Source of the DNA: Alphaproteobacteria bacterium
Lineage (GTDB): Bacteria; Pseudomonadota; Alphaproteobacteria; Sphingomonadales; Kordiimonadaceae
NCBI GenBank assembly: GCA_021774695.1
Contig: JAJFIU010000162.1
Span: forward strand, 124,001-188,000
DNA length: 64,000 nucleotides
Reading direction: 5' to 3'
The notes beneath the pieces are model-generated. The model searched no databases. It saw only the letters and a program-made list of their open reading frames with translations, and was not told the origin of the DNA. A program made the translations under genes and the position numbers. This document shows positions 46,132 to 64,000 of this stretch, in pieces (positions within the stretch are counted from its first letter, which is position 1; every line of letters begins with the position of its first letter).

Positions 46132-46155
46132 TGCTCGCTCCTGCGGCCATCTACT

Positions 46156-48576: not shown

Positions 48577-48664
48577 CCTCGCATCCTCTGCTCTATTATA
48601 TTTTTATTGAGCGTTAGTACCGTCGTGACCCATTTTTGGGTTCTGTCGTTATCTTTTTGTCTAA

Positions 48665-49348
48665 TTAAACAGCAGCCCTCAGGTTTTCGGTTACAACATG
48701 CCCGTCAAACAGGTTGATTGTGCGGCGTGCGTAATCGGCGTGGGCCGGGCTGTGGGTTACCATTACAATGGTAGTGCCTTCGGCGTTCAGCGACTGGAGC
48801 ATCTCCATCACTTCCTGACCGTGGGCACTGTCCAGGTTCCCGGTTGGCTCATCCGCAAGGATCATGGCTTGATCGCCGACAACAGCGCGGGCCACAGCAA
48901 CACGTTGTTGCTGACCGCCAGAAAGCTGGCTTGGCATATGCTTGGCACGGTGGGCAATTCCCACTTTGTCCATAACCTTGGCAACCCGTTCGCGCCGAAC
49001 GGCGGCTGGGATGTTGTGGTACAGCAATGCTAGTTCAATATTTTCTTCAACGGTCAATTCGTCGATCAAGTTGAAAGACTGGAAAATGAAGCCGATATTT
49101 TGTTTTCTGATGTTGGACAATTTTGATTCCGGATACCCGGCAACATTTTCGCCCATGAAAATATAGTCACCGTCGGAGGGGCTATCGAGCATCCCGACGA
49201 TATTCAAAAGTGTTGATTTTCCGCATCCAGACGGGCCCATGATCGCAACGAACTCGCCGCTTTCTATTTCGATATTAACATTATCTAGTGCCACGGTTTC
49301 AACCTCGTCGGTCCGATAAAACTTAGAGAGATTGTGCAACTTCAGCAT
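48665..49348 (-). CDS. MacB/LolD-type ABC transporter ATPase
   Basis: A 227-residue stand-alone nucleotide-binding subunit: Walker A GPSGCGKST (about 39-47), Q-loop FIFQSFNL, signature LSGGQQQRVAVARAV, Walker B MILADEPTGNLDS, and H-loop MVTHSPAHADYA. The LolD/MacB/FtsE-type sequence fits FtsX-fold permeases. It is the only ATPase in the operon and must energise all four permeases downstream, unless some are silent. It lies 100 bases after the adaptor gene; that gap holds only a weak hairpin (CTCTGC/GCAGAG with a 12-base loop). Confidence 0.95.
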   Translation of the reverse strand: MLKLHNLSKFYRTDEVETVALDNVNIEIESGEFVAIMGPSGCGKSTLLNIVGMLDSPSDGDYIFMGENVAGYPESKLSNIRKQNIGFIFQSFNLIDELTVEENIELALLYHNIPAAVRRERVAKVMDKVGIAHRAKHMPSQLSGGQQQRVAVARAVVGDQAMILADEPTGNLDSAHGQEVMEMLQSLNAEGTTIVMVTHSPAHADYARRTINLFDGHVVTENLRAAV

Positions 49349-49448
49349 GCCGTGTTCCTTTCTTTATTTTTTTAATTTATACTCTGCTTTTTACTGTTCG
49401 CAGAGCGTTCCTTTTGTCGTGTCCCGAGCCAAATTTTTAACTTGGAGA

Positions 49449-50795
49449 TTAGTCGTCACCGGACAATCGCAACCTGTCCATTTCAACAAAACTACTGTAA
49501 GGTGACGTTACAACGCGTTCCCCGATTTCCAGTCCTTCCAGAACTTCGATGAAGCGCGAATTGCGGCGCCCAAGGCGAACTGTTCGCTTAACAGCCTGCG
49601 CGCCGTCTTCGGTGACAACAAAAACCCAGTTGCCGCCAGTATCCTGATAAAAAGCACCATTGGGTATAAGGGCCGCCTTGGTGGCATCACCGAGCGTTAG
49701 TTTGGTTTGCAGGGTTTGCCCGCGGCGTATGTCGGCGGGCTGCGTGTCTGCAAAAACAAAATCAACTTCAAACTGACCGTTAGTTACCTGCGGGTATATT
49801 TTCGCAATTGTCATGCGGTAGCTGATGCCGCCGCGTTCAAACACTGCCTCCTGGCCAATATCGACACGCCCCAAATAAAATTCATCGATATTAGCAGTGA
49901 GTTTGTAATTATCAGGGTCATCAATTTGACCCAACCGATTACCGCGCGGAATATTCTCGCCGACTTCGACATTGAAACCAGACAGTTTGCCGTCCACAGG
50001 TGCGCGTACATTCAGGTTATCAAGGTTTTTGCGAGCAGCAACGAGGCTTTCTTCAAGCCGTACTGCAGCTTCGCGCAAGAAAACTAGCTGGCTCTCTTGC
50101 AGGCGCGCGTCCGTCGCTTGGCTTTCCAGCGTCAATTCCCGGCGGTTAATATTATATTCCAGATTATCTTCACTATCTTCGAGCTGACGCGTCGGAATAG
50201 CGTTGGTTTTCACCAACTCCCGCTCACGTTCCACTTTACGCGTCAAAGTTTTGATCTGATAATTGAAATCCACCAAATTACGCTTGTGGCCCAGGCGATT
50301 TTGCTCGAGCTGCAATTCCTGCGACCTCATATTGTTCAGTTGCTCGGTTACACGGGTTTCGTTGGCGGTGAAACTAACTTGCAGATTGCTGTTAGACAGC
50401 TCGACGATCAGATCGCCCTTTTTGAGCATGGTGCCATCCTCAACGAGGATACGCTCAACCCGGCCACCTTCTATTGCATCAAGAAAAAGCGTTTTCAGCG
50501 GCGTCACACGGCCTCGAACCGGAATAAAATCTTCAAAGGTACCCTCGGTGACTGGGGATATGACAATGCGGCTTTCGTTAACCCTGAAGGTGCGCCCGCC
50601 AGCTGCGTCGTTCACCAACATCCAAACCACGCCTGCAAGGGCAAGAATAGCCACCGCAATACCTGCGGTTTTCCAGGGTGTTTTTTTCTTTTCCACCTTC
50701 CGGTCCATGCCAGCACCGGACGCTGCCCGGTCAGTCCCTGCCGTCTTGCCTCCGTACATGGAAATAGGCGTCCCAGATGTTTGTTTATTTTCCAT
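49449..50795 (-). CDS. HlyD/MacA-type periplasmic adaptor (membrane fusion protein)
   Basis: A 448-residue adaptor: cytoplasmic N-terminus, one membrane span at ~43-65 (WKTAGIAVAILALAGVVWML), a first barrel/lipoyl half (GRVTPLKTLFLDAIEGGRVERILVEDG), a long coiled-coil hairpin (~140-265, rich in Glu/Arg/Gln/Leu), the second lipoyl half (NVRAPVDGKLSGFNVEVGENI) and a beta-barrel plus membrane-proximal domain (to ~440; LIPNGAFYQDTGGNWVF). Such adaptors bridge MacB-like permeases to a TolC-type outer-membrane channel; no such channel gene is in the window. It is the first gene of the operon, 47 bases or so downstream of the predicted sigma-54 start site. Confidence 0.9.
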   Translation of the reverse strand: MENKQTSGTPISMYGGKTAGTDRAASGAGMDRKVEKKKTPWKTAGIAVAILALAGVVWMLVNDAAGGRTFRVNESRIVISPVTEGTFEDFIPVRGRVTPLKTLFLDAIEGGRVERILVEDGTMLKKGDLIVELSNSNLQVSFTANETRVTEQLNNMRSQELQLEQNRLGHKRNLVDFNYQIKTLTRKVERERELVKTNAIPTRQLEDSEDNLEYNINRRELTLESQATDARLQESQLVFLREAAVRLEESLVAARKNLDNLNVRAPVDGKLSGFNVEVGENIPRGNRLGQIDDPDNYKLTANIDEFYLGRVDIGQEAVFERGGISYRMTIAKIYPQVTNGQFEVDFVFADTQPADIRRGQTLQTKLTLGDATKAALIPNGAFYQDTGGNWVFVVTEDGAQAVKRTVRLGRRNSRFIEVLEGLEIGERVVTSPYSSFVEMDRLRLSGDD

Positions 50796-50851
50796 CGCTA
50801 TGTAGTCTTCCGTTTTTCGCTTTTTGATAGCGCTTTTATTGTCCCATTAGG

Positions 50852-50867
50852 AGCAAAGGCTATGCCA
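50852..50867 (-). promoter_or_regulatory. Sigma-54 promoter for the ABC operon
   Basis: On the minus strand this reads TGGCAT-AGCCT-TTGCT, against the sigma-54 consensus TGGCAC-N5-TTGCW. The -24 GG and -12 GC are separated by exactly 10 bases. Transcription would begin near 50842 and reach the adaptor ATG at 50795. The divergent gene encodes a sigma-54-dependent activator, which supports the call. Confidence 0.85.
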
Positions 50868-50906
50868 ACTATTAAACTATTGATTTATATAAGCTTTATG
50901 TAAAGC

Positions 50907-50967
50907 TGTCCGATTTTGAACATTATTTCCTGTACGATTTCGAACACTTTGTGTACGGTTTCGAACA
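50907..50967. promoter_or_regulatory. Three 16-bp activator sites (upstream activating sequences)
   Basis: TGTCCGATTTTGAACA at 50907, TGTACGATTTCGAACA at 50931 and TGTACGGTTTCGAACA at 50952. Each is an imperfect inverted repeat of type TGTWCG-N4-CGAACA. Centres are 24 and 21 bases apart, about two helical turns. They sit roughly 65-125 bases upstream of the predicted sigma-54 start site and just before the response-regulator ATG (50996), as expected for enhancer sites bound by its Fis-type domain, possibly with autoregulation. Confidence 0.8.
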
Positions 50968-50995
50968 GGCCCCTAATCACCATACAGGACATTCG

Positions 50996-52420
50996 ATGCT
51001 TCAGCAAAACGGCTCAATTCTAATTGTAGACGACGATGAGGATATCCTTGTTGCGGTAAAACTGCTGCTTAAACGCCATTTCGATACCGTCATTACATGT
51101 AGCAACCCCGAAGATATACCCGTGCTGATGAAGGCCCATTTGTTCGACGCTATCTTGCTCGATATGAATTTTGGGCCCGGCGAATCCTCTGGGAAACAGG
51201 GCTTCCATTGGTTGGGGCAAATTTTGGCGATCGACCCACGAGCGATTGTTATCATGATCACAGCTCACGGCGGCGTTAATGTTGCGGTGGAAGCCATGAA
51301 ACAAGGGGCGACCGACTTTGTAGCAAAGCCCTGGCAAAATGAAAAACTGGTTGCCACGCTTTCCACCAGTGTGAAATTGAGGCGTAGCCGAAGCGAAGCC
51401 GATAAACTGAAAAAAACCAATAAGGCGCTAGCCGCTGTTGCCAGCGAACCAAAGCAACCCATACTGGGCAACAGCCCGGCCATTGCTGAGGTCCTGTCGA
51501 TCATCGCGCGCACCGCCCCCACAGACGCCAATGTTCTCATCCTGGGAGAAAATGGTACCGGTAAAGAACTGGTTGCCCGCGAACTTCATCGCTTATCCAA
51601 ACGATCCGAAAATATTTTCATGTCCGTTGATTTGGGTGCGGTACCCGAAAGCTTGTTCGAGTCGGAGTTATTTGGTCACAAAAAGGGGTCTTTTACCGAT
51701 GCACGTGAAGATCGGATCGGACGCCTTCAGGCGGCAGAGGGCGGCACGTTATTTCTTGACGAAATTGGCAACCTGCCGCTGCATCTGCAAGCAAAATTAT
51801 TGACCGTCCTGGAGGCGCGGGAAGTAGTCCCGGTGGGCTCAAGAACACCGGTCGCCATTGATATTCGCGTGATTGCGGCCACGAATGTTGCTCTTAATAA
51901 ATTGAAAGACGAAGACATTTTTCGCCAGGACCTGTTGTTCCGACTAAACACGGTTGAAGTCCACGTACCACCGCTTCGCGACAGACGACAGGACATAGCG
52001 GAAATCGCCCGACATTACAGCGAACTCTATTGCCGTAAATACGATAAACCTGAAAAAGAATTTACCCCTGAGGCACTGTTTGCGATGACAAATTATAGCT
52101 GGCCCGGCAATGTAAGAGCGCTGCGCCACTCCATTGAGCGGGCGGTTATTCTGTCGGACAGCGGCGCGTACACGGCTCTTGATTTTCAAATGGACTCGTC
52201 TGTCAGTAACACTCCGCAATCTGGTGCATTATTGCCTCAAGACGGCGATCATACCGCGGCAAGCTCGGCAGACCCCAATGACCTGAATTTGGAAAGAATA
52301 GAAAAAAGCGCAATTGCCGGTGCGCTGAAAAAACACCGGTATAATATCAGTCATGCAGCAAAGGAACTGGGGATTACCCGGGCGGCACTGTATCGCAGGA
52401 TGGAAAAACATGGGCTTTAA
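50996..52420 (+). CDS. NtrC-family sigma-54-dependent response regulator
   Basis: A 474-residue regulator: receiver domain (residues ~6-125, phospho-acceptor Asp56 in AILLDMNFGPGE, Lys in VAKPW); AAA+ domain (~150-385; Walker A GENGTGKE, sigma-54 contact loop GSFTDA, Walker B GGTLFLDEIG, RVIAATN, sensor-like FRLNTVEVHVPPLRDR); and a C-terminal Fis-type HTH (IAGALKKHRYNISHAAKELGITRAALYRRM). The contact loop differs from the canonical GAFTGA but keeps the Thr. The start is ATG 50996 with AGGA upstream; the GTG at 50951 would lie inside an activator site. Predicted to activate the divergent ABC operon. Confidence 0.95.
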   Translation: MLQQNGSILIVDDDEDILVAVKLLLKRHFDTVITCSNPEDIPVLMKAHLFDAILLDMNFGPGESSGKQGFHWLGQILAIDPRAIVIMITAHGGVNVAVEAMKQGATDFVAKPWQNEKLVATLSTSVKLRRSRSEADKLKKTNKALAAVASEPKQPILGNSPAIAEVLSIIARTAPTDANVLILGENGTGKELVARELHRLSKRSENIFMSVDLGAVPESLFESELFGHKKGSFTDAREDRIGRLQAAEGGTLFLDEIGNLPLHLQAKLLTVLEAREVVPVGSRTPVAIDIRVIAATNVALNKLKDEDIFRQDLLFRLNTVEVHVPPLRDRRQDIAEIARHYSELYCRKYDKPEKEFTPEALFAMTNYSWPGNVRALRHSIERAVILSDSGAYTALDFQMDSSVSNTPQSGALLPQDGDHTAASSADPNDLNLERIEKSAIAGALKKHRYNISHAAKELGITRAALYRRMEKHGL

Positions 52421-53762
52421 ACGTTTCAGCGTCTTGCTGGCCGGCAGGCTTGTGATAATAATGCTCACGCTTATGGGCCTGAGCTATCTGTTTTCTGTTC
52501 CGGGTTACCACGCAGCGACATTTCTAACATTCTGCATCCTGGTGTTTCTTGCAGCCGAGGTTTTTCAATTTGTTAAGCGGACAAACGCAGAAATTTCCCG
52601 GTTTCTGGATGCTGCTCGCTATGCCGATTTCAGCCAACGTTTTCGCATGCATGATTTGGGCGCAGGTTTTGGGGAGCTGGGCGAAACCTTCACCGATATT
52701 TTACGGCGCTTTCAGGAAGTTCGGGCAACAAAAGAGAAGGAACTGCGCCACTTGAAAGCACTGATCGAACATGTGCCGGTTCCGCTTTTATCTCTGCATT
52801 CTGACGGCGCGCTAAATGTTTGGAACAACGCAGCAAGAAGGCTATTTGGTACAACACCAGCAACCCACCTGAGCCATCTCGCGCAGTTTGGCACCAGCTT
52901 TCAAAAAGAGGTCGCTACCATAGAACCCGGCGAAAGACGCTTGGTCGCTTTTGACGCCGACGGTGTAGAGCAGCAGATGATGCTGGCCGCGACAAAAATT
53001 ATCATTGATAGCAAACCCGAAAAACTGTTTAGCCTTCAAAATATCCAGTCCGAGCTGGACATCGCTCAGCTTCAAGCCTGGCAAGATCTGGTCAGGGTGT
53101 TAACGCACGAAATTATGAATTCGATAACACCGGTGGCGTCGCTTGCTAAAACCGCCGTTGACCTGGTTGATGATGCGGCAGCCAAAGTAAAAAATAACCC
53201 TGAGGTTGTTGCAGAGCTGGCTGATGTAAAAGATGCAGTCAACACGGTGGCCCGTCGCTCTGACCGGCTCAGCCAGTTTGTCTCCAGCTATCGCAGCCTA
53301 ACCCGCTTGCCGCCGCCCGAGCGCACGCTGGTTCGCCTGCAGGAACTTTTCGAAAATATGGAACGGCTTTTCCGCGAAGAATGGCAAGCAGAAGGCATTA
53401 CACTGCACACCTCGGTTGAACCCGCCGCCCTTGATGTCTCCGCTGACAGCGATATGCTCGAGCAAATCCTTATCAACATGCTCAAAAATGCTGGCCAAGC
53501 TCTTGCTGGAAAAGAAGACGGCTGTGTGTGGTTGTTTGCTCGCCTGAATAAACGCGGCAGGGTAGCAATAGAAGTGGCAGACAATGGGCCGGGCATCCCA
53601 GCCGATATAGCCAAACAAATATTTGTACCTTTTTTCACCACCAAACGGTCCGGCAGTGGTGTTGGCCTTGCTCTTACGCGTCAGGTGATGATCTCCCACG
53701 GCGGGGCGGTTAGCCTGTCGGAGCGTGACGGCGGCGGAGCTGCTTTCTCGCTGACGTTTTAG
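52410..53762 (+). CDS. Membrane sensor histidine kinase
   Basis: A 450-residue partner of the upstream regulator, overlapping its stop by 11 bases (ATG at 52410). Two adjacent spans near residues 8-50 (FSVLLAGRLVIIMLTLMGLSY and ATFLTFCILVFLAAEVFQF) have almost no periplasmic loop between them, so the stimulus is probably sensed in the membrane or cytoplasm. A PAS-like domain (~115-215; ALIEHVPVPLLSLHSDGALN), the phospho-acceptor His233 in LTHEIMNSITP, and an HATPase with N-box MLKNAGQAL, DNGPGIP and FFTTKRSGSGVGLALTRQV follow. NtrY-like arrangement. Confidence 0.93.
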   Translation: MGFKRFSVLLAGRLVIIMLTLMGLSYLFSVPGYHAATFLTFCILVFLAAEVFQFVKRTNAEISRFLDAARYADFSQRFRMHDLGAGFGELGETFTDILRRFQEVRATKEKELRHLKALIEHVPVPLLSLHSDGALNVWNNAARRLFGTTPATHLSHLAQFGTSFQKEVATIEPGERRLVAFDADGVEQQMMLAATKIIIDSKPEKLFSLQNIQSELDIAQLQAWQDLVRVLTHEIMNSITPVASLAKTAVDLVDDAAAKVKNNPEVVAELADVKDAVNTVARRSDRLSQFVSSYRSLTRLPPPERTLVRLQELFENMERLFREEWQAEGITLHTSVEPAALDVSADSDMLEQILINMLKNAGQALAGKEDGCVWLFARLNKRGRVAIEVADNGPGIPADIAKQIFVPFFTTKRSGSGVGLALTRQVMISHGGAVSLSERDGGGAAFSLTF

Positions 53763-53780
53763 GCGCGAAGAACCTGCTCG

Positions 53781-53828
53781 GAAATCACTGCGGAAATCAC
53801 TGTGAAAATCACTGTGAAAATCACTGGG
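53781..53828. repeat. Four 12-bp tandem repeats
   Basis: GAAATCACTGCG, GAAATCACTGTG, AAAATCACTGTG and AAAATCACTGGG lie head to tail between the convergent kinase and Lrp genes; the last unit includes the Lrp stop codon (53821-53823). Confidence 0.9.
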
Positions 53829-54276
53829 CCTGCATGCCGCAATAACGGCCTGTTTCCTTGATCATACGAGTAGTTATGGAGGTATTGAAACGCGACACAC
53901 CAGGTAAGCTGCTAAGCTCCCGCCTCAAAAGATCGTCAAGCGCCGACATATCCGGCGCCAAAACCTCCAAGACATAATCATATTCGCCGGTCACTGCATG
54001 ACAGCATCTTACTGCACGGTGTTGGATGATGGCATCCTCAAATACCTGGTAACGGTCAAACGATACGACCACATGCACCAATGCCCGAATGCCAAGACCG
54101 AGAGCCTGCGGAGATATCCGCGCGCTATACCCTTCGATTGCACCAGATGCTTCCAGCTCTTTCACACGGCTCCAGCACGGCGTTTTGCTCAGGCCTACTT
54201 TTTCACCCAAAATAGTGAAGGAAATCCTGCCGTCACCTTCCAGAGCCGTCAAAATTTTTAGATCAATCAAGTCCAT
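53821..54276 (-). CDS. Lrp/AsnC-family transcription regulator
   Basis: A 151-residue regulator: N-terminal HTH (MDLIDLKILTALEGDGRISF, GEKVGLSKTPCWSRVKELE) and C-terminal RAM ligand-binding domain (VHVVVSFDRYQVFEDAI, AVTGEYDYVLEVLAPD, RFNTSITTRMIKE). It is divergent from the tryptophan-dioxygenase-like gene with 131 bases between starts. This is the usual position for an Lrp protein that responds to the amino acid its neighbour degrades, so tryptophan or a related aromatic is the likely effector (inference). Confidence 0.93.
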   Translation of the reverse strand: MDLIDLKILTALEGDGRISFTILGEKVGLSKTPCWSRVKELEASGAIEGYSARISPQALGLGIRALVHVVVSFDRYQVFEDAIIQHRAVRCCHAVTGEYDYVLEVLAPDMSALDDLLRRELSSLPGVSRFNTSITTRMIKETGRYCGMQAQ

Positions 54277-54407
54277 TATCGTTCCTAAAAATGACCAATT
54301 TACAGATCATTGTCCTTTATATATGGCAATTATAGGAATAAAAAGAACAATGTTCGTGTCAGTAAAGCCTATAGTCCTATTTGAAATTTGGCTAATGAGG
54401 AATGAAA

Positions 54408-55157
54408 ATGGACCGCGAAGAATATTACGACCGGATCGAAAATCCTGAAATGCTCGATTACGGTGTCTACTTAAAGTGCGACCAATTACTCACCTGCCAA
54501 AAGCCGCTTGACGAGCTGTGCAATGCCGACGAACTCCAGTTTCAGATCGTGCATCAAGTGGAAGAGCTATGGATGAAGTTGATGACCTTCACCCTGGTTG
54601 ATGTGATCGACTTCCTGCAACAGGGCGAAACCCACAGAGTGTTGACCTTGATGGGACGCGTGAGCGCACTGCAGCGTCTGATGACCAACCAATTGGATAT
54701 TCTGGAGACGATGTCGCCCAAGGAATATCAGCAAATTAGGTTGCAACTGGGAAATGGTAGCGGCCAAGAATCGCCGGGTTTTCGTATGCTGCTGAAAATG
54801 CCGCCGGATATGTGGAAGGCCTACACGGAAACCTACCTAACGCCGGACAAACTGACGATCGCCGATATTTATGACGAGAAATATTGCCATGATGGCCGTT
54901 ATGCCATCGCAGAAGCACTGATTGAATTCGACGAGCAGTTCCAAAAGTTTCGCTGGAACCATTTGTTTTTAATTCATCGCTCGATAGGGCTTAGTTCCAA
55001 GTCCCTGAAAGGGCGGCCGGTCGACCTATTGCAATCAGGTGCGAAACACCGTTTTTTCCCCGATTTGTGGGATATTCGCAGCGCGATGACCGACAAATGG
55101 GGCGGCACTTATGGGATTGTTCGAGAGCCAATTCACAAAAAAACAGCTGGTAAGTAA
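54408..55157 (+). CDS. Tryptophan 2,3-dioxygenase-family haem protein, divergent
   Basis: 249 residues from ATG 54408, which has GAGGA six bases upstream; the ATG at 54402 abuts that site. Canonical TDO opens the indole ring of tryptophan to N-formylkynurenine. Conserved here: QFQIVHQVEELWMKL (Phe45, His49), Tyr107 and Arg111 in YQQIR for substrate carboxylate binding, the haem-ligand His185 in FRWNHLFLI, and FFPDLWDIR. Differences: about 50 residues fewer between Arg111 and His185 than usual, and the glycine-rich GTGGSSG loop replaced by KSLKGRP. It may be a true TDO of a short subgroup, or a TDO-fold enzyme acting on another indole or aromatic substrate. Confidence 0.8.
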   Translation: MDREEYYDRIENPEMLDYGVYLKCDQLLTCQKPLDELCNADELQFQIVHQVEELWMKLMTFTLVDVIDFLQQGETHRVLTLMGRVSALQRLMTNQLDILETMSPKEYQQIRLQLGNGSGQESPGFRMLLKMPPDMWKAYTETYLTPDKLTIADIYDEKYCHDGRYAIAEALIEFDEQFQKFRWNHLFLIHRSIGLSSKSLKGRPVDLLQSGAKHRFFPDLWDIRSAMTDKWGGTYGIVREPIHKKTAGK

Positions 55158-55183
55158 CAGCGGCGGTCAAAACAAACTAAATG

Positions 55184-55690
55184 TTAATCTGCCTTTGAAG
55201 GTTCGGCGTATTTAAGGCCCGCTGCATTGAGACCTGCGCGGGCACACTCGGCGTCTTCAAAACCTCGCGCACCAGACACACCGACGCCGCCAATATGCAC
55301 GCCGCCAGATGTGAAAATGGCTTCGCCACCTTCAAAAACTGCGATGTTTGGCGCATGGCCGATTGCCGGGAATGTTCGCGCACTTTCAGCAGCGCCTTTG
55401 GTTGGCCGCGGAAAGGCTGCGGCGGCGTTGGCCTTCCACTGTGCAATATCAATCGATCCCAGCTGCGCGCCATCCATACGCAGAAATGCCATCAGATTTT
55501 TGCCTTGGTCAAGAACTGCGATATTTAACCTCCAACCCTTTTTTCGGGCGAACACTTCGCAGCCAGCTACAATTGCCTTAGCTGACGCCGTGGTGAGCGC
55601 CGGCCGCATTTCCTGTGCTGATGTCGGCACCATTCCTGCGTTGACAATACCTGCCAATACCAAAAATACTTTTATCGTTTTTCGCGACAT
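55184..55690 (-). CDS. Exported GlcG/HbpS-family protein
   Basis: A 168-residue protein of the GlcG/HbpS family with a signal peptide (cut near SAQ-EM, residue 26). Family motifs: LTTASAKAIVAGCEVFARKKGW, NIAVLDQGKNLMAFLRMDGA, SIDIAQWKANAAAAF, and GGVHIGGVGVSGARGFEDAECARAGL at the end. HbpS binds haem in Streptomyces; many other members have no known ligand. It is convergent with the haem-dependent TDO-like gene, a suggestive but unproven link. Confidence 0.88.
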   Translation of the reverse strand: MSRKTIKVFLVLAGIVNAGMVPTSAQEMRPALTTASAKAIVAGCEVFARKKGWRLNIAVLDQGKNLMAFLRMDGAQLGSIDIAQWKANAAAAFPRPTKGAAESARTFPAIGHAPNIAVFEGGEAIFTSGGVHIGGVGVSGARGFEDAECARAGLNAAGLKYAEPSKAD

Positions 55691-55815
55691 AATTTCCTCC
55701 CAAACAGTCTAAAAAATAGATACCTTATCCCATTATGGTGCCAGACACCCCAATACAGCAAGGTTTGCATTGTTAACCGGAAATGCTTTTGGGGACACCC
55801 TTTAGCATAGAGCGG

Positions 55816-57588
55816 TCATCGGTCGGCGGGTTTGGCCAAGGCATCACAAACATTAACCAACAAAACCGTACGGTTCCGGCCAATGCTTGCCGCGCTTTTT
55901 ATCGTCGAAAAAGCTACCCTGCACCCATCATCGCTTACGTCGGCCTGGTCGGGATATCCTTCCCATATTTTTTTGGGCTTGTCTTCTCCTGACCAGCCAA
56001 ACCAATAGAGGCCGCCGGGCCGTTGTCTAACTGGCGTATACCGGCTTTTCATCAGCCGGATTATACCGACTTTTGTGATGAGCGTCTGGGTTTTGCTGCG
56101 CTCACCTGGGATCAAGGGAAGATCTGTTACTTCAATCTCCGGTGCTGGTCCGCCCAATTTCAATAGGGAAACCCCCAAAAGATTCCGGTTCATCTCCTCG
56201 CCTTCCGCTGACACATAGGAAACTGGGCAGGCAGCCATGTGGATGGCATCCAGAAAAGGAATAAACTTCATACATTTCAGAGGATACTGATTGTCCGAAA
56301 CCCACATAGCGTTTGCATCCTTTGTTGCATAATGAAATGTACCCGCCGCGGTCGACTGCAAAAACCCGCGCGCTTCGCCCAGTCTAACTGTTGTTGCGGC
56401 TTCATAGCTTGCTTGTTTCACTTCATCAGCGTGTCGCCATTTACACGTCAGAGAGCTCTGGCTCCAATTTGCGAACTCAGCGCCAATGGCCCGCGCGCGC
56501 TGAAAGCCGCCAGTTGAAACCCCGCGGCCATAATATTGGTGGGAATATTGCTGCAACTCCTGACCCAGCAAGCCCGCCTTATAGAGTAGTGCTTTTGGAG
56601 CATCCGCATCTTTATTGGAGCCGCGACCTGGTGTTTTCGGTGCCCTAATTCTGTATGAAACAAAATCACTGGCAAGACACAGGTTTGGTCCGCCGACATC
56701 AGTCTCGAGTGTGTGCAAAATACCCTTGTTCCAAACAAGCAAGCGGCTTGCTTTTCTGGGCACTGCTTCCGTCATGACCAACCCCTGCGAATGCGACCAA
56801 AGCAGGTTGGTGATGCTTCGCCTTGACGTAACAACCGTGGGGACAATAGCTGGCACCAAAGACGTTATGTGGTCTTCCATTGGTTGCTTCAACTGCTGAA
56901 ACATTTCTCGGGTATCGCTCATCAATTTTGCATAACGCACTGCCATTTGATCGTGAGGCACCAGCCAAGAAACAGAGCCTTCACCGGCGGTTTTGTCGCC
57001 AGTACTGGCTTGGCCGGTTTTTTTATCTGTGCCAATTCTTGGGTCGGTTTCAGATCCAGTACCCAGCTCTCTGCTGCGCGAACAAATCCACCACGGCGAC
57101 GCCTGGCTGGCGAGCAGGTCAGACCGTGTAAGAACTTGCTCACCGATCTCGCCTGCCACATTGGGGTTAACGCGGATATATTTAGCTACCGTTCTTGCCC
57201 TGGCTGGCAAATAGGCCACCGCTTCAACTGCGCTGGTGTCGGCGCATAGTTCAGCATCCATACTTGCCCGGATATAGCCCAGCCAATACCATTCAATCGC
57301 CGCCCTGACGTCCGCTGAAAAGGTTCGTTCAGCCAAATCAAACAAATAAGGCGGCGGCAAATGGTTATACTGTCTCGCTAATTCCTGTCGGAGAGGAATA
57401 TCCTCGGGCGGTGCGGTTTCCAATCGCCGTTCAAGCCTTTTTAGATCTTCGGAAACGGTCAAATCTGTGGAAACTGAAAAACTGCGGTCTATGGCGCTAA
57501 AGCTTCTAAATGTTTGCGGTTCTGCGCCCTGCAAACTCGAGGCAATCGACAACACCAAACCAACTGCTAGTAATAATTTCAACCGCAT
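55816..57588 (-). CDS. Exported protein with C-terminal beta-propeller-like repeats, unknown
   Basis: A 590-residue exported protein: signal peptide MRLKLLLAVGLVLSIASSLQGA, then a helical, partly TPR-like N-terminal region (~40-200, RRLETAPPEDIPLRQELARQYNHLPPPYLF, quoted as a domain; AAIEWYWLGYIRASM). A middle region follows, then C-terminal strands of TolB/WD40-like character (QADVSDDGCRVAFS near residue 560). No catalytic motif is recognised. The start at 57588 has GGAG upstream; an earlier frame start at 57624 would bury the signal peptide. It is divergent from the TPR/ATP-grasp gene and may or may not belong to the phosphonate locus. Confidence 0.6.
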   Translation of the reverse strand: MRLKLLLAVGLVLSIASSLQGAEPQTFRSFSAIDRSFSVSTDLTVSEDLKRLERRLETAPPEDIPLRQELARQYNHLPPPYLFDLAERTFSADVRAAIEWYWLGYIRASMDAELCADTSAVEAVAYLPARARTVAKYIRVNPNVAGEIGEQVLTRSDLLASQASPWWICSRSRELGTGSETDPRIGTDKKTGQASTGDKTAGEGSVSWLVPHDQMAVRYAKLMSDTREMFQQLKQPMEDHITSLVPAIVPTVVTSRRSITNLLWSHSQGLVMTEAVPRKASRLLVWNKGILHTLETDVGGPNLCLASDFVSYRIRAPKTPGRGSNKDADAPKALLYKAGLLGQELQQYSHQYYGRGVSTGGFQRARAIGAEFANWSQSSLTCKWRHADEVKQASYEAATTVRLGEARGFLQSTAAGTFHYATKDANAMWVSDNQYPLKCMKFIPFLDAIHMAACPVSYVSAEGEEMNRNLLGVSLLKLGGPAPEIEVTDLPLIPGERSKTQTLITKVGIIRLMKSRYTPVRQRPGGLYWFGWSGEDKPKKIWEGYPDQADVSDDGCRVAFSTIKSAASIGRNRTVLLVNVCDALAKPADR

Positions 57589-57756
57589 ACAGCGCTCCAG
57601 GACCCCAAAATTGATTATAGACATTCAACTGCAAGCCAACAACCCAGTGTAAAGTAGGCTAATTAACAATTAATTGGCCAGTTGGCCCGTTTAAAGGAAT
57701 TGGCCTACACTGCAGTATGGGTTATTGCTAAAACAGCTTCAACTGCGGACAATATA

Positions 57757-59352
57757 ATGGCTCTTTTCGGAAAATCAGACCCCGGCGCATCAGACCCCGG
57801 CGCATCAAACTCTGGCGCATCAAACTCTGGCGCATCAGACTCTGGCGCATCAGATCCAAGCGTAACAAATCCCGGCGCAGATGAGCCCTCTAAGCTCGAC
57901 CTGGACGTTGCCAATGCTTTTGTCAAAATGGGCACACGTGACAGCAATGCACCGGTTAAGAACGGTCTCGCCAAGGAAACACTGATATCTTTATTATATC
58001 AGCAGGCGGACCTTCTCGCTAAACAGGGGCAGCAAAAGCAATCCTCCACGTTATTTGAATTTGCCATGCACTTGTCAGAAACCAAACTGGAAGATGCCAA
58101 AACCGAGCAAGGGTTCGCCGATTTGGAGCGGCAGGCTCGATATCTGATGACCAATGGTCGTTTTGCGTTGGCGGTTAAAATATTTGAATCGCTCGCGGCA
58201 GCTGCCCCAGAAAACCAGGAGGTTCATCTGAATCTGGCCAGCATATTCCATGCACTGAACCGACAAGATGATGCCCGAAAATTACTAGTTAGCTTCTTTG
58301 CCCAGTGTCCCACCGAGTTTATAGCGGCGGACGATAGCGCCCGGAAAAAAGGCACCCTTTTGGTCGTCTCTGGCTTTGACAAAACCTATTATAAAATTGG
58401 CACACGAGAAAACGGCACGTTCCAGCGATACAGACGCGGTGGGCACTTTATGCTCAAACACCTGATCAATACCGACCCATACGACCAGTATGCCTACACG
58501 ATTTCGTCCGACAACATTAGCCGGTCTGCCCCCGACGTGCAGTATGACCTTCTGCTAAATACAATTGCTGATGCCGACACCGAGTATAACTCGCTGAAGT
58601 CACTTGAGGTCTACACCAACGAACATCCGGTCGCACCGATTGTAAATCACCCGTCCAATGTTTTGAAAACTACGCGAGACCAAAACTACCAGCGACTGAA
58701 CGGCCTTCCCGGAATCCGGTTCCCAAAAACCCAACGGTTTTTTGTCGGCGACAAGTCGGTGCAAACTATTATGGATGAAATCGAAGCAGCGGCCTTTGCC
58801 TTCCCCTTGATCATTCGGGAAACCGGCACCCATACGGCCGTCTCTACCTTGCTGGCATACCAGAAAAGTGAATTGGAGGCATATTTAGCTGATGTCTCTG
58901 GCGACAGCATTTATGTGATCGAGTTTATTGAGAATGCATCAGCCGAAGGCCACTATACTAAAATGCGCTTCTTTGCCATCGACGGGCAATTATACCCTGT
59001 CGTTCGACATGTGGATAAGGTCTGGAACGTTCACGGCGGCAATCGCAAAACCTTCATGAAGAACTACGCGTGGATGGTCGAAAAAGAGAAGCAGTTCCTG
59101 TCCGACCCCGCATCGGTGATCGGGGAAGATACATTTGCTCTTTTACAAAAGCTTCCCGATTTTGTCGGCCTCGAGTTTTTCGGCTTTGACTTTACCATTT
59201 TGGGTGATGGTACCGTTTTGATTTTTGAGCTAAATCCGGCGATGCGTCATAGTTTCAGCCATGCAAAAAATTCACCCTACATGCGCCCACACTTGCAGAA
59301 AATTTCCGATGCTTTTCAGGCGATGGTTGACCGAAAAATTGCCGCCACCTAA
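57757..59352 (+). CDS. TPR / ATP-grasp-like protein with pentapeptide repeat
   Basis: 531 residues from ATG 57757 (MALFGKSD); TTG starts at 57682 or 57700 are possible but have poor sites. Order: a Ser-Asp/Asn-Pro/Ser-Gly-Ala low-complexity stretch (residues ~7-41), TPR-like helices (~80-190; LISLLYQQADLLAKQGQQKQ, LEFAMHL-like FEFAMHLSETK, NQEVHLNLASIFHAL), a middle domain (GTLLVVSGFDKTYYKIGTR), and a C-terminal ATP-grasp-like fold (~335-520; FPLIIRETGTH, DSIYVIEFIENASAEGHY, FFGFDFTILGDGTVLIFELN). The ending ELNPAMRHSF resembles the metal-binding ExN of ATP-grasp ligases. It overlaps the aminotransferase stop by 4 bases, next to the phosphonate genes; peptide-ligase activity is inferred. Confidence 0.7.
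   Translation: MALFGKSDPGASDPGASNSGASNSGASDSGASDPSVTNPGADEPSKLDLDVANAFVKMGTRDSNAPVKNGLAKETLISLLYQQADLLAKQGQQKQSSTLFEFAMHLSETKLEDAKTEQGFADLERQARYLMTNGRFALAVKIFESLAAAAPENQEVHLNLASIFHALNRQDDARKLLVSFFAQCPTEFIAADDSARKKGTLLVVSGFDKTYYKIGTRENGTFQRYRRGGHFMLKHLINTDPYDQYAYTISSDNISRSAPDVQYDLLLNTIADADTEYNSLKSLEVYTNEHPVAPIVNHPSNVLKTTRDQNYQRLNGLPGIRFPKTQRFFVGDKSVQTIMDEIEAAAFAFPLIIRETGTHTAVSTLLAYQKSELEAYLADVSGDSIYVIEFIENASAEGHYTKMRFFAIDGQLYPVVRHVDKVWNVHGGNRKTFMKNYAWMVEKEKQFLSDPASVIGEDTFALLQKLPDFVGLEFFGFDFTILGDGTVLIFELNPAMRHSFSHAKNSPYMRPHLQKISDAFQAMVDRKIAAT
57775..57879. repeat. Seven 15-bp tandem repeats, in frame
   Basis: The unit TCAGACCCCGGCGCA and variants run from 57775, coding Ser-Asp/Asn-Pro/Ser-Gly-Ala. 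The first two copies are identical, as are the third and fourth, implying recent slippage. The number of copies probably varies between strains. Confidence 0.9.
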
Positions 59353-60569
59353 ATCGGAGGTAACTCCTCTAACGCCCTAACGCCTTTTTCAAAAACGTCG
59401 TTACTGGAGCATAAAATCAGTCGAATACAGTCGGCAGAGGTTGGTCCGTAAACATGGCCCGGAATAGAAACCACTTTCTTTTCTGACAGAAGGTAATCTG
59501 CCACCAGCGCACCTGCGCCCTTTTCCGTTCCTCGCCCGGCTGAACGCACCCGCCTGCCCAGATTTGAAACTTCCGGAAATGCAAACATGCCACCTTGCGG
59601 CAGACGCGGCCACGTGAAGCCCTTTTCCCCCGTCAATGTGTTCGATAATATTTTCGCCCGTTTTTGCAGCATGACAGCCACGCCGTCCATCCAGGGGTCG
59701 GCAGAAACATCAGAAATCATCCGCAGGGCAAAGCGCTCCGACAGTATATTGACGCCGAGGTATAAGTAATCATGCAGCTTCGCCGCCAGTTCGATAACCT
59801 CCGGCGGCGCGCACAACCAGCCAATGCGCAGACCTGGCACACCGTACTTTTTTGAAAAGCTATTGATAAGTATCGATCGATTCTCAAGGCCTGAAATACA
59901 CCGTGCGGGGATATGGGGCCGGGCAAAAGCCATGCTGTCATAAACCTCATCGTGGATCACCCACAGATCGTTTTTTTCGGCGACCCCAGCAAGCGCCTCA
60001 AAATCAACTTGACTAGCAACATATCCGCTGGGGTTTTCAGGCGAATTGACAATGAGCGCACGCGCGCTTTTTGAGGCGCTTGAGAGTGCGTCCAACGCGG
60101 CATACTCATGGTTCCCGCATTGCCTGGACAGGCAAACTGGCGCGCGCCCAAGTGTGCGTACGGCGCGCTGGTAAAGCATATAGGTGGGATCAGTGATCAA
60201 TATTTCTTCGCCGGGTGAACTGGTCACTAATGCCGCCAAACTGATGGCCTCTACGCCGCCGTGGGTGATCAATATTTCATGTTCCGGGTCAACATTAAGG
60301 CCGTAACGACGCGCATAATAATCGGCAACCGCAACCCTGAGCTCCAGCATGCCGCGGCTTTTTTCGTATGATTTGCTGGACAGCATAAACGCGTCCCAGG
60401 TCAGGTCCTTTTCCTCGATCACCGAGCGAATACCAGGGGCCGGTCCAAAGTCGGGCTCGCCGAAGGCCAGGTTAATCGCGCCGGGTATATCTTTTGCCTT
60501 CGCAGCGGTGGCTTTGGTTGCGTAGCCGTCAAGTTGCAACAGGTCTTCGCTCAGTGGGGGTGTATGCAT
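59349..60569 (-). CDS. Class I/II PLP-dependent aminotransferase
   Basis: A 406-residue fold-type I aminotransferase: NLAFGEPDFGP (about 33-43), ITHGGVEAISL, DPTYMLYQ, VNSPENPSGY, DEVYDSMAF, and Lys240 in SFSKKYGVPGLRIGW as the expected PLP Schiff-base residue; the C-terminal Arg for the carboxylate is in DCIRLILCS. Divergent from the PEP mutase gene across 211 bases, it is a candidate for amination of phosphonoacetaldehyde to 2-aminoethylphosphonate or of phosphonopyruvate to phosphonoalanine. It is not of the usual PhnW (class V) type. The start is ATG 60569; the frame is open to 60671 but that extension is not conserved-looking. The ribosome site is weak. Confidence 0.88.
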   Translation of the reverse strand: MHTPPLSEDLLQLDGYATKATAAKAKDIPGAINLAFGEPDFGPAPGIRSVIEEKDLTWDAFMLSSKSYEKSRGMLELRVAVADYYARRYGLNVDPEHEILITHGGVEAISLAALVTSSPGEEILITDPTYMLYQRAVRTLGRAPVCLSRQCGNHEYAALDALSSASKSARALIVNSPENPSGYVASQVDFEALAGVAEKNDLWVIHDEVYDSMAFARPHIPARCISGLENRSILINSFSKKYGVPGLRIGWLCAPPEVIELAAKLHDYLYLGVNILSERFALRMISDVSADPWMDGVAVMLQKRAKILSNTLTGEKGFTWPRLPQGGMFAFPEVSNLGRRVRSAGRGTEKGAGALVADYLLSEKKVVSIPGHVYGPTSADCIRLILCSSNDVFEKGVRALEELPPI

Positions 60570-60780
60570 ATTTTCTACTTTGGTCCAGGTTAAGATAAAA
60601 CACCGTAATAACGCAGTACAATATTGGAACACTGGCACCGGTGGCATGCTCTGTTGCTTTTGCCATGACATTGCGACGGTGACTGCGCTAAAAGGTCTTT
60701 TACAGTTGTACTGGCAGTATGCGCACTAGAATCGATTTAGCAAACTATCGGTTACCTCAGTTGTTCGGAAAAAAGAAAAT

Positions 60781-61683
60781 ATGCCTAAGGCTCAAGCCAC
60801 ATCCACTCAGCTAAAAGCACTGCTGCAGACAAGCGAATTATCCTTCATTATGGAAGCGCACAATGCGCTGGCAGCACGGTTGGCTGAGCGTGTCGGGTTT
60901 AAGGCTATTTGGGCTTCAGGGTTAACAATTTCAGCATCTATGGGACTGAGAGACGCCAACGAATTAACCTGGAGCCAAGTGCTCGATTTGGTTGAACCCA
61001 TGACAGATTTTATCGGCGCGCCAGTTCTGTTGGATGCAGATAGCGGCTACGGCGATTTCAATATATTCAGTCGTTTTGTCAAAAAAGCTGAAGCTTGCGG
61101 CATCGCCGGTGTTTGTATCGAAGACAAGGCGTTTCCTAAACGGAACTCTTTCGCCAACACCGATCATACACTGGCTGACATCGATGACTTCACCGCAAAA
61201 ATTCACGCCGCCAAGGACGTGCAAAGTGACTCTGACTTTTGTCTGGTAGCCCGAACCGAAGCGCTTGTGGCGGGAACGGGTATGGATAACGCGCTCGAAC
61301 GAGCAACTCGCTACGAAGACGCCGGGGCCGATGCATTGTTTGTTCATTCAAAGCGATCTACGGCCAGCGAAATTCAGGAATTCACCAAAAATTGGCGCGG
61401 CTCCATTCCGCTGATTATTGCGCCAACCACTTATTCATCAACGCCGACCAACGACTTCAAGGCCATGGGAATTTCGGCGGTTATTTGGGCCAACCACGGC
61501 CTTCGTGCTGCCATGGAAGCCATGGAAAAAACCTACCGGGAAATTCACGAACAGCGGTCAGTCGAGGGAGTCGAAGGTCATATAGCAACGGTCTCCGACA
61601 TTTTGTCTTTAACTAAAACCGAAGAACTGCTCAAAGCCGAGCAAAACTATAACAATCCAAAACCAAAAGGCAGTGACGATTAG
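60781..61683 (+). CDS. pepM: Phosphoenolpyruvate mutase
   Basis: Rearranges PEP to phosphonopyruvate, the C-P bond-forming step of almost all known phosphonate biosynthesis. The 300-residue isocitrate-lyase-superfamily enzyme carries the diagnostic motif EDKAFPKRNSF at residues 114-124. This is the EDKxFPKxNS signature that separates PEP mutases from methylisocitrate lyases and oxaloacetate hydrolases. It also has WASGLTISASMGLRDANE (45-61) and the metal-site DADSGYGD (85-92). Its stop overlaps the GTG start of the decarboxylase (TAGTG), so the two are translationally coupled. The equilibrium strongly favours PEP, and the next enzyme pulls the reaction. Confidence 0.95.
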   Translation: MPKAQATSTQLKALLQTSELSFIMEAHNALAARLAERVGFKAIWASGLTISASMGLRDANELTWSQVLDLVEPMTDFIGAPVLLDADSGYGDFNIFSRFVKKAEACGIAGVCIEDKAFPKRNSFANTDHTLADIDDFTAKIHAAKDVQSDSDFCLVARTEALVAGTGMDNALERATRYEDAGADALFVHSKRSTASEIQEFTKNWRGSIPLIIAPTTYSSTPTNDFKAMGISAVIWANHGLRAAMEAMEKTYREIHEQRSVEGVEGHIATVSDILSLTKTEELLKAEQNYNNPKPKGSDD

Positions 61684-62858
61684 TGCTGAACCCGCATGAT
61701 TTCATCAACACACTCAATAATCGCGGCATATCGTTTTATGCAGGGGTGCCCTGTTCTTTTTTGAACGGCCCCATGAGCCTTCTGGCTAACCGTGAAAATT
61801 ATGTGGGAGCCACCATAGAAACTGACGCTTTGGCACTGTGCGCGGGTGCCTGGCTCGCCGGCAAAAAGACAGCTGTTTTTTGCCAAAACTCTGGCCTCGG
61901 CAACCTTATAAGCCCCTTGAGTTCACTGAATGCCCCTTTTGCTATCCCAACACTGTTGGTGATTGGGTGGCGCGGAAAACCCGGTGACATCGACGAGCCA
62001 CAACATATGTTGATGGGCAAAACAACGCAGCAAATATTGGCGGCAATGGATGTAGTCAGTTTCGAATTACCAAAAACGGCATCAGAAGCAAAACATACGT
62101 TGGCTGAAGCCTTTGCGCTAATTGAGCAATCGGGGAAATCCGCCGCACTGCTGGTTAGCCCGGAAACCTTCGAGGCTGTGGACGCAGCAACGCGGGCAGA
62201 CAGCATCAAGGCCGCAACCTTAGGGCGCGAAACCCTTGTAAAAGACTTGAAATCCGGCGCCTACTACCCGGGACGCTACGATGTTTTAAAGGCGCTTTCG
62301 GCCCACATGCCGGAGAACGCCGCCGTAATTGCCACCACTGGAAAATGTGGCCGGGAACTTTATTCGATCGGCGACAGAAACCAATATTTCTACATGGTGG
62401 GTTCGATGGGGTCAGCCAGCGCAATTGGCCTGGGTGCTGCGCTCAACACAGCGCGGCCAGTGGTTGTTCTGGACGGTGACGGCGCAGCCTTGATGCGGCT
62501 GGGCACAATGGCAACAGTTGGCAGAATTGGCCCACCCAATTTGTTCCATATTATTCTCGACAATCAGGCGCACGATTCCACCGGCGGACAGCCTACAGGT
62601 TCAGAAACCATCGATTTTTCCGCCGTTGCGGCGGCTTGCGGCTATGCGTCAGCAACCAGTTGCGATGACATTTCAACCGCCGTCGACACCCTTAAAAAAT
62701 GCCTCGCGGGTTCTGGCCCGCATTTGCTGCATATTCGCATTAAGCTAGGGTCGCTCAAGGGCCTTGTTCGCCCAAAAGTGCAACCACATGAAGTGGCTGA
62801 ACGGTTTCGTCAATTCTTGAAGGTGGCTGTACTGGCAAAAAAAGGCAAGCAAGCTTGA
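61683..62858 (+). CDS. ppd: Phosphonopyruvate decarboxylase
   Basis: A thiamine-diphosphate enzyme converting phosphonopyruvate to phosphonoacetaldehyde and CO2, which makes PEP mutase run forward. 391 residues; a GTG start shared with the pepM stop. Seen: FYAGVPCSFL (18-27), catalytic-type Glu46 in GATIETDAL, GDIDEPQHMLMGKTTQ (Ppd-typical DEPQH), and the ThDP/Mg motif LDGDGAALMRLG (about 262) with DNQAHDSTGGQ. In most Ppd proteins the first block reads GVPDS; here Asp is Cys. Sulfopyruvate decarboxylases are close relatives, but coupling to pepM settles the assignment. Confidence 0.93.
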   Translation: MLNPHDFINTLNNRGISFYAGVPCSFLNGPMSLLANRENYVGATIETDALALCAGAWLAGKKTAVFCQNSGLGNLISPLSSLNAPFAIPTLLVIGWRGKPGDIDEPQHMLMGKTTQQILAAMDVVSFELPKTASEAKHTLAEAFALIEQSGKSAALLVSPETFEAVDAATRADSIKAATLGRETLVKDLKSGAYYPGRYDVLKALSAHMPENAAVIATTGKCGRELYSIGDRNQYFYMVGSMGSASAIGLGAALNTARPVVVLDGDGAALMRLGTMATVGRIGPPNLFHIILDNQAHDSTGGQPTGSETIDFSAVAAACGYASATSCDDISTAVDTLKKCLAGSGPHLLHIRIKLGSLKGLVRPKVQPHEVAERFRQFLKVAVLAKKGKQA

Positions 62859-62893
62859 GCAATTGCGGAAAATATCTGAATTGGCGTTAATGC

Positions 62894-64000
62894 TCAGTTG
62901 TCTAACAAGACAACGTATCCGCCTCTATCCTCGCCTTTAGGAAATTCGTGCACAACCATACCTTTCTGTAAGTTTGGAAAAGAAGAGGAAACAGCAATCA
63001 CTCCCTGCCGCAAGAACTCCTCCAAATTTGCTTTGCTGGCATGGTGCACTGACCACAGAAGAACTGGGCATTGGTCCTCACCGCCTATTCTAGCCTTCCA
63101 GAGGTCTGCTAGCGGCGCAGGAAATGCTCCCGATTGCAGCAGCGTTCTAGGAACAGGCAGAAAATTGGGCCTGCCGCTCATGTAATGTCCGTAGAATATT
63201 TGAGAACTCGGCTCGGCGGTATAGTTCACCTCAAAATCAACAACCGGAATAATGCTTGCGTTGCAACTAGGAAATGATTCAACAAAGAGTGATGACTCTC
63301 GCCACTGTTCATGATCCTTAGCGGTTACCTGCCAAATAGTTTGCGTTGCGGCAACGAACAGTAGAACAGCGGCGCCAATCTCAATATAGGAAGCAGAACG
63401 CTGGTTCCTCTCCTGCCTTAATAATTGATCATATGTCACACCAAGCCCAAGCCAAAATAACGGCAAGCTAATAACGAATATGCGCGACGCATAGACAGGC
63501 TTGAACAAAATCGAAACTACGATAGCCAGAAACGCGACAAGCAACCAATATAACAACAGAGGAAATACCGACCGCGAGAGGGCACGAGCATCAAAATTCC
63601 CAGAGACTGTTCTGAATAGAATGTAAAAACCAAAAACAATGACTAGCCCAGCTCCCGCAACAGACCCAAGCGTTTTCCTGATACCGCCTATTGTTGCGTT
63701 TAAGAGGAAAATAAAATCAGTGGAAAACCAGATATCTGCGTCTGCTACCAGCATGTGTGCTTTATGCCAACCAACAAAGGGGGCCACTATCGTCAAGACA
63801 CACAGGCCCGCCATTATCGTATTTTTTCTGCTTCTTTTGGTTTGGGCGCATAGCAAAATCATACCAAACCCTGCCCCGGAAAATATGAAAAGATAGTAGT
63901 GCGTAAAACTACCGATAAGGCATAAAATTACAGCATAATACCAGTTCGCATTATTAACTGTCTTTCCGGCTTTTTCCCGATTCAGGATAGAAAAAAAATT
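62894..64000 (-). CDS. Membrane glycosyltransferase-like protein (N-terminus beyond window)
   Basis: An open frame running off the right edge; at least 368 residues, C-terminal part complete. Several spans are visible (WYYAVILCLIGSFTHYYLFI, TIMAGLCVLTIVAPFVGW, AGAGLVIVFGFYILFRTV, LFPLLLYWLLVAFLAIVVSIL-like), then a SRIFVISLPLFWLGLGV span and a C-terminal soluble domain (~170 residues). The WHKAH segment and the overall layout resemble GT-C (PMT/ArnT-like) glycosyltransferases. A start at 63862 is rejected because the frame continues upstream with hydrophobic coding sequence. Composition is slightly more AT-rich than its neighbours. It is convergent with ppd; any tie to phosphonate decoration of a glycan is speculative. 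Confidence 0.65.
   Translation of the reverse strand, partial: NFFSILNREKAGKTVNNANWYYAVILCLIGSFTHYYLFIFSGAGFGMILLCAQTKRSRKNTIMAGLCVLTIVAPFVGWHKAHMLVADADIWFSTDFIFLLNATIGGIRKTLGSVAGAGLVIVFGFYILFRTVSGNFDARALSRSVFPLLLYWLLVAFLAIVVSILFKPVYASRIFVISLPLFWLGLGVTYDQLLRQERNQRSASYIEIGAAVLLFVAATQTIWQVTAKDHEQWRESSLFVESFPSCNASIIPVVDFEVNYTAEPSSQIFYGHYMSGRPNFLPVPRTLLQSGAFPAPLADLWKARIGGEDQCPVLLWSVHHASKANLEEFLRQGVIAVSSSFPNLQKGMVVHEFPKGEDRGGYVVLLDN

Follow-up and report, generated by a model that had tools for sequence, protein, structure and literature searches.

A conserved four-gene phosphonate module of marine Kordiimonas-type bacteria with a predicted ATP-grasp ligation step

Four adjacent genes in an alphaproteobacterial genome may constitute a minimal phosphonate pathway that ends in ligation, with 2-aminoethylphosphonate (AEP) joined through an amide bond into a phosphonopeptide-like product, a reading for and against which we find the case evenly balanced. 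The genes fill positions 57757-62858 of the window, the 64,000-nucleotide stretch analyzed here (bases 124001-188000 of contig C71, from a 3.8-Mb assembly of 172 contigs), and encode a tetratricopeptide repeat (TPR)/ATP-grasp protein, a class I/II aminotransferase (AT), PepM and Ppd. In the proposed scheme, PepM would rearrange phosphoenolpyruvate (PEP) to phosphonopyruvate and Ppd would decarboxylate this irreversibly to phosphonoacetaldehyde, two steps predicted from strong family membership. The AT, instead of PhnW, would then produce AEP, and the TPR-ATP-grasp protein would use ATP to activate a carboxylate, whether on an amino acid, a peptide or another acid, and join it to the amine of AEP; the product would be an N-acyl-AEP or a phosphonopeptide. 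As in phosphonopeptide clusters, pepM has a coupling enzyme and a candidate ligase for amide bonds in the same cluster.

In the majority of bacterial phosphonate clusters, a nucleotidyltransferase activates AEP so that it can be used to decorate surfaces. We found no description of the four-gene variant in the open-access literature searched, and the AT and the TPR-ATP-grasp protein are probably two enzymes not previously described for their predicted roles. If our reading is correct, this compact combination of AEP synthesis and ATP-grasp ligation would be a testable source of new phosphonopeptide-like metabolites from marine Alphaproteobacteria, and functions would be assigned to a rare class I/II AT family and to part of an uncharacterized TPR-ATP-grasp family.

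Organization and conservation of the module

57757-59352, + strand: TPR and ATP-grasp protein, 531 aa, predicted carboxylate-amine ligase (Pfam TPR_19, 1e-7; RimK ATP-grasp, 5.8e-4)
58129-58296, + strand: TPR region, about residues 150-205 of the ORF beginning at 57682 (Pfam TPR_19/TPR_14/TPR_16)
58540-59340, + strand: ATP-grasp catalytic region (partial RimK match; invariant blocks TGTHT, RFF.IDG and FE.NPAMRH)
59349-60569, - strand: class I/II PLP aminotransferase, 406 aa, predicted phosphonoacetaldehyde transaminase (PF00155, 1.2e-45)
60570-60780, no strand: AT-pepM divergent intergenic region, 211 bp
60781-61683, + strand: pepM, phosphoenolpyruvate mutase (TIGR02320)
61683-62858, + strand: ppd/aepY, single-chain phosphonopyruvate decarboxylase (TIGR03297)

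All four genes named in the initial annotation lie where it put them. The ligase start was placed at the ATG at 57757, inside an ORF running from 57682 (congener proteins begin MALFK), and the AT start was placed at 60569 from homologue starts, the ORF itself reaching 60671. The arrangement described earlier also holds: the AT gene is divergent from pepM and overlaps the ligase gene tail-to-tail by 4 bp, and ppd is directly joined to pepM, its GTG start sharing 1 bp with the TAG stop of pepM. Across module copies the ligase-AT spacing stays within -6 to +15 bp, and the AT-pepM gap of 211 bp compares with 26-189 bp in congeners.

A tblastn search of the window proteins against the neighborhoods of ligase homologues recovered the same order and orientation (ligase forward, AT reverse, pepM and ppd forward) in G003, G005, G006, G014, G015, G017, G018 and G010, the last copy being truncated at a contig end. 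PepM exceeds its curated cut-off in 9 of 20 genus genomes, and exactly these nine carry the four-gene module (Fisher p = 6e-6 for pepM against the syntenic ATP-grasp gene in 20 congeners, uncorrected for shared ancestry). In pairwise comparisons, divergence is correlated among the four proteins (r 0.72-0.90), which is what joint inheritance would give, and dN/dS is low for AT, PepM and Ppd (0.07-0.17, with dS saturated). The module is a conserved gene set of marine Kordiimonas-type bacteria, more so than chance would produce.

Invariant co-occurrence within the genus supports the functional link between ligase and pepM that had been proposed. The refuting condition proposed with it, that homologues of the ATP-grasp gene never occur together with pepM, is not borne out: within the genus the closest homologues are invariably accompanied by pepM, although TauD-fused relatives and copies at 43-46% identity (G013, G016 and G025) do not lie beside it. 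G013 and G016, with relatives at 44-46% identity, have no pepM over the cut-off at all. Because such relatives occur without pepM, the enzyme class is not intrinsically phosphonate-specific.

Module flanks vary among genomes, and the four genes have no dedicated exporter or resistance gene as a conserved companion. TRAP-transporter-like genes, recognized by eye, flank the module in G014, G018 and G003. A 602-aa protein lacking Pfam or NCBIfam matches (window 55816-57624, - strand) adjoins it in this genome and in G015 (61% identity) only. Immediately following ppd, but encoded on the other strand, are genes judged by eye to be GtrA-like, methyltransferase-like and GT2-like (L004 10894-14575). 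In the nearest relative, the metagenome-assembled genome G015 (L007 10001-13811), four or more frameshifts interrupt the ligase, AT and pepM genes of the module copy, with some neighbors apparently intact, reflecting either decay or assembly error.

About two-thirds of clusters contain a nucleotidyltransferase (PMC6697681). The initial annotation saw none for phosphonolipid synthesis within the window, and none lies near this module: none was found in window positions 44001-64000, in the rest of the contig or in congener flanks, and domains of the pepM-fused type had no match in the module-locus sequences of the nine genomes, within the flanks examined. We also considered whether other alphaproteobacterial pepM clusters share the module and rejected this for those examined, which came from 45 other genomes (in 27 of them the flanks spanned only about 1.5 kb, and roughly a dozen loci scored under the pepM cut-off).

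Predicted synthesis of AEP

PepM surpasses the curated TIGR02320 cut-off (350.5 bits versus 319.55), aligns to a solved PEP mutase (322 bits, E 2e-95) and carries the motif EDKAFPKRNS at 61120-61149, bearing out the EDKxFPKxNS hallmark reported for it. Ppd likewise surpasses TIGR03297 (392.2 bits versus 312.5) and matches phosphonopyruvate decarboxylase subunits in the PDB. Because both proteins exceed curated cut-offs, phosphonoacetaldehyde is the predicted intermediate, in agreement with the earlier proposal that the cell makes this compound, and these family assignments make the predicted route from PEP through phosphonopyruvate to phosphonoacetaldehyde well supported.

The AT was described at the outset as not PhnW-type, which we can affirm: it is a class I/II protein (PF00155) with no class V model among the families listed for it, and no protein exceeds the PhnW cut-off (TIGR03301) in any of the 20 genus genomes scanned. 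The nearest PhnW-like protein, a class V enzyme found in most congeners, scores about 200 bits and does equally well against pyridoxamine-pyruvate transaminase; this weaker candidate could make AEP. As PhnW does not reach its cut-off in any congener and the module has no nucleotidyltransferase in its vicinity, the AT is the best candidate for AEP synthesis. Genomic linkage and the absence of PhnW suggest that it likely converts phosphonoacetaldehyde to AEP in place of that enzyme. K240, R248, R383 and other aminotransferase residues are invariant in the AT alignment (the PLP lysine codon is at 59850-59852), and its neighbors among solved structures are ordinary aminotransferases. An enzyme of class I/II type, AlpL, makes aminomethylphosphonate from phosphonoformaldehyde in the argolaphos pathway (PMC8976061).

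The AT family is rare. Profile searches at E <= 1e-75 or 1e-90 returned only this genome among 260 and 398 genomes, with few candidates scored per genome, and trees did not settle the branching order within the family. Orthologues at 50% and 48% identity occur on an Azospirillum thermophilum plasmid within a pepM cluster, tying the family to phosphonates independently of Kordiimonas.

A different outcome would follow if the AT acted on phosphonopyruvate, as PnaA does, to give phosphonoalanine for the ATP-grasp enzyme to ligate into a peptide. Precedent comes from the phosphonoalamides: PnaA, which uses PLP and belongs to the aspartate aminotransferase superfamily, is the coupling enzyme for PepM, and a pair of ATP-grasp ligases finishes the pathway (PMC11867202). 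The AT retains an arginine, R383, at the position of the alpha-carboxylate arginine. However, the phosphonoalamide cluster can do without ppd and encodes a second ligase, whereas every copy of the module has a ppd, whose product would drain phosphonopyruvate irreversibly, and a single ligase; the same AT family also sits with aepY in Azospirillum. The presence of ppd makes AEP more likely than phosphonoalanine, and we consider the phosphonoalanine route unlikely.

Slightly less credible, in our view, is that the AT is a GntC- or VioD-like PLP enzyme that modifies an amino acid by elimination, cyclization or addition, perhaps joining it to a phosphonate-derived intermediate, with the ligase coupling that amino acid. 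We retain this non-transaminase role because GntC (NF041364) is the best curated match to the AT, at 221 bits versus 171 for the best aminotransferase NCBIfam model, yet falls far below its cut-off of 415. GntC, VioD and OrfR share the signature E9 plus S25/S26 (PMC10367076). Members of the AT family also lie beside oxygenases: a 2OG-Fe(II) oxygenase and a membrane protein resembling an Azospirillum one accompany a 37% relative in Piscirickettsia, and a PhyH oxygenase with a PhnW-like gene accompanies the Azospirillum orthologue. Against such a role, the Kordiimonas module lacks a hydroxylase, the solved-structure neighbors are those of a transaminase, and without the AT no dedicated AEP transaminase would be present. 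The AEP reading must in turn accommodate that the nearest curated model is a cyclodehydratase (GntC) and that the Piscirickettsia relative has no pepM nearby.

The TPR-ATP-grasp protein as candidate ligase

Membership of the ligase in the ATP-grasp superfamily, suspected from the initial annotation, is established by three observations. D503, E516 and N518 (numbering of the 57682 ORF; codons at 59188, 59227 and 59233), the expected metal ligands, are invariant in ten homologues, as are many further residues. Family members weakly match several ATP-grasp Pfam models (RimK, R2K_3, ATPgrasp_ST and GSH-S). Finally, all 50 PDB matches listed by Foldseek for a model of the ATP-grasp half are ATP-grasp folds (E from 2e-4); because their TM-scores are about 0.2, we use this model, from poor AlphaFold predictions on a four-row alignment (pLDDT 45 at full length, 46 for the ATP-grasp half), for superfamily identity only. 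Against the RimK family proper (PF08443), the ligase scores on either side of the cut-off of 21, with 19.9 bits by hmmscan and 21.8 in the genome scan. Comparison of the ATP-grasp half with RimK and glutathione-synthetase alignments by hhalign was not significant and no better than with unrelated controls, and a PDB profile search with the full-length protein was dominated by TPR matches. A repetitive Gly/Ala/Ser/Asp/Pro linker near the N terminus (57786-57880, + strand), encoded by short tandem repeats, is absent from aligned congeners.

ATP-grasp ligases activate a carboxylate; AEP has none, and it would therefore serve as the amine nucleophile. We infer this final step from the fold, the intact catalytic residues and the invariant linkage to pepM, and ATP-grasp ligases are known to build phosphonopeptides (PMC11867202).

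Among 385 class and 398 phylum genomes sampled, no ligase was as close as those of the module, and matches at E <= 1e-40 outside the family were few; because only a handful of candidates in each genome receive a score in such scans, absence outside the genus is not proven. Scans of IMG/VR returned no viral relatives of ligase or AT. Trees did not settle the monophyly of pepM-linked ligases relative to the unlinked 43-46% copies. More distant relatives are often fused or adjacent to TauD-type 2OG-Fe(II) oxygenases, and congeners carrying the fusions have no pepM over the cut-off. Five loci (L038, L039, L041, L043 and L169; L038 by similarity to L041) encode fusions of about 700 aa that combine the oxygenase, TPR and ATP-grasp regions, and in two genomes tested (G002 and G008) these adjoin a MobA-like nucleotidyltransferase.

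TPR domains usually bind proteins, and AEP could instead be placed on a macromolecule, the TPR region guiding the ATP-grasp enzyme to a protein, to peptidoglycan or to an acidic polysaccharide whose carboxylates it would amidate. Surface tailoring accounts for most of the phosphonate capacity of bacteria (PMC6697681). As judged by eye, the surroundings of ligase relatives include genes for type I secretion, for an RTX-type protein or for a flippase-like product, and GtrA and glycosyltransferase genes follow ppd in this genome. These last genes, however, adjoin the module only here among the genomes compared and are not beside it in the nearest relative, and the module has no conserved nucleotidyltransferase, glycosyltransferase or other surface gene as a companion, leaving macromolecular attachment improbable. 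As a still longer shot, the TPR-ATP-grasp enzyme might conjugate AEP to protein or peptide carboxylates in an ATP-driven phosphonylation without nucleotide activation, its TauD-fused relatives doing likewise with other, oxidized small molecules. A surface glycan cluster as the main reading was rejected, there being no conserved nucleotidyltransferase or glycosyltransferase.

Comparison with known systems

The TauD-TPR-ATP-grasp fusions of Alphaproteobacteria share with the module a homologous TPR-ATP-grasp half (about 30-38% identity) but are joined to a 2OG-Fe(II) oxygenase and have no pepM beside them. The rhizocticin, plumbemycin and valinophos pathways need extra carbon-skeleton enzymes, which are not apparent among the four genes. 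They resemble the module in encoding ligases of the ATP-grasp type, with phosphonate head groups as substrates (PMC11867202). The phosphonoalamide cluster pnaABCD of Streptomyces is likewise a minimal four-gene set with PepM, an aspartate-aminotransferase-like enzyme and ATP-grasp ligation; it differs in the absent ppd and second ligase already discussed, in an aminotransferase that acts on phosphonopyruvate and in having no TPR fusion described.

The argolaphos cluster alp combines PepM, Ppd, the class I/II-type aminotransferase AlpL and an ATP-grasp protein, AlpC, but extends to 16 genes, whose products include reductase, epoxidase-like and GNAT enzymes, and its phosphonate product carries aminomethylphosphonate. 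Pnt phosphonyl-tailoring clusters (Ppm-Ppd-AEPT-PntC) have PepM, Ppd and AEP as a predicted intermediate in common with the module, which in contrast has neither a PntC-type nucleotidyltransferase nearby nor a class V AEPT.

The Azospirillum thermophilum plasmid cluster (NZ_CP029358.1) lacks a TPR-ATP-grasp gene and contains, besides pepM, aepY and AT, a PhyH oxygenase, a GNAT/FemAB-type candidate amide-bond enzyme, a multi-pass membrane protein and a second AT. Its PhyH oxygenase is joined to a PhnW-like piece, in a gene that appears split by a frameshift. The cluster (L174 9853-18457) adjoins contractile injection system genes, and its pepM, absent from the gene table of the record, was found by tblastn. 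With the module it shares the pepM-aepY-AT combination, including an AT of the same family at 50% identity.
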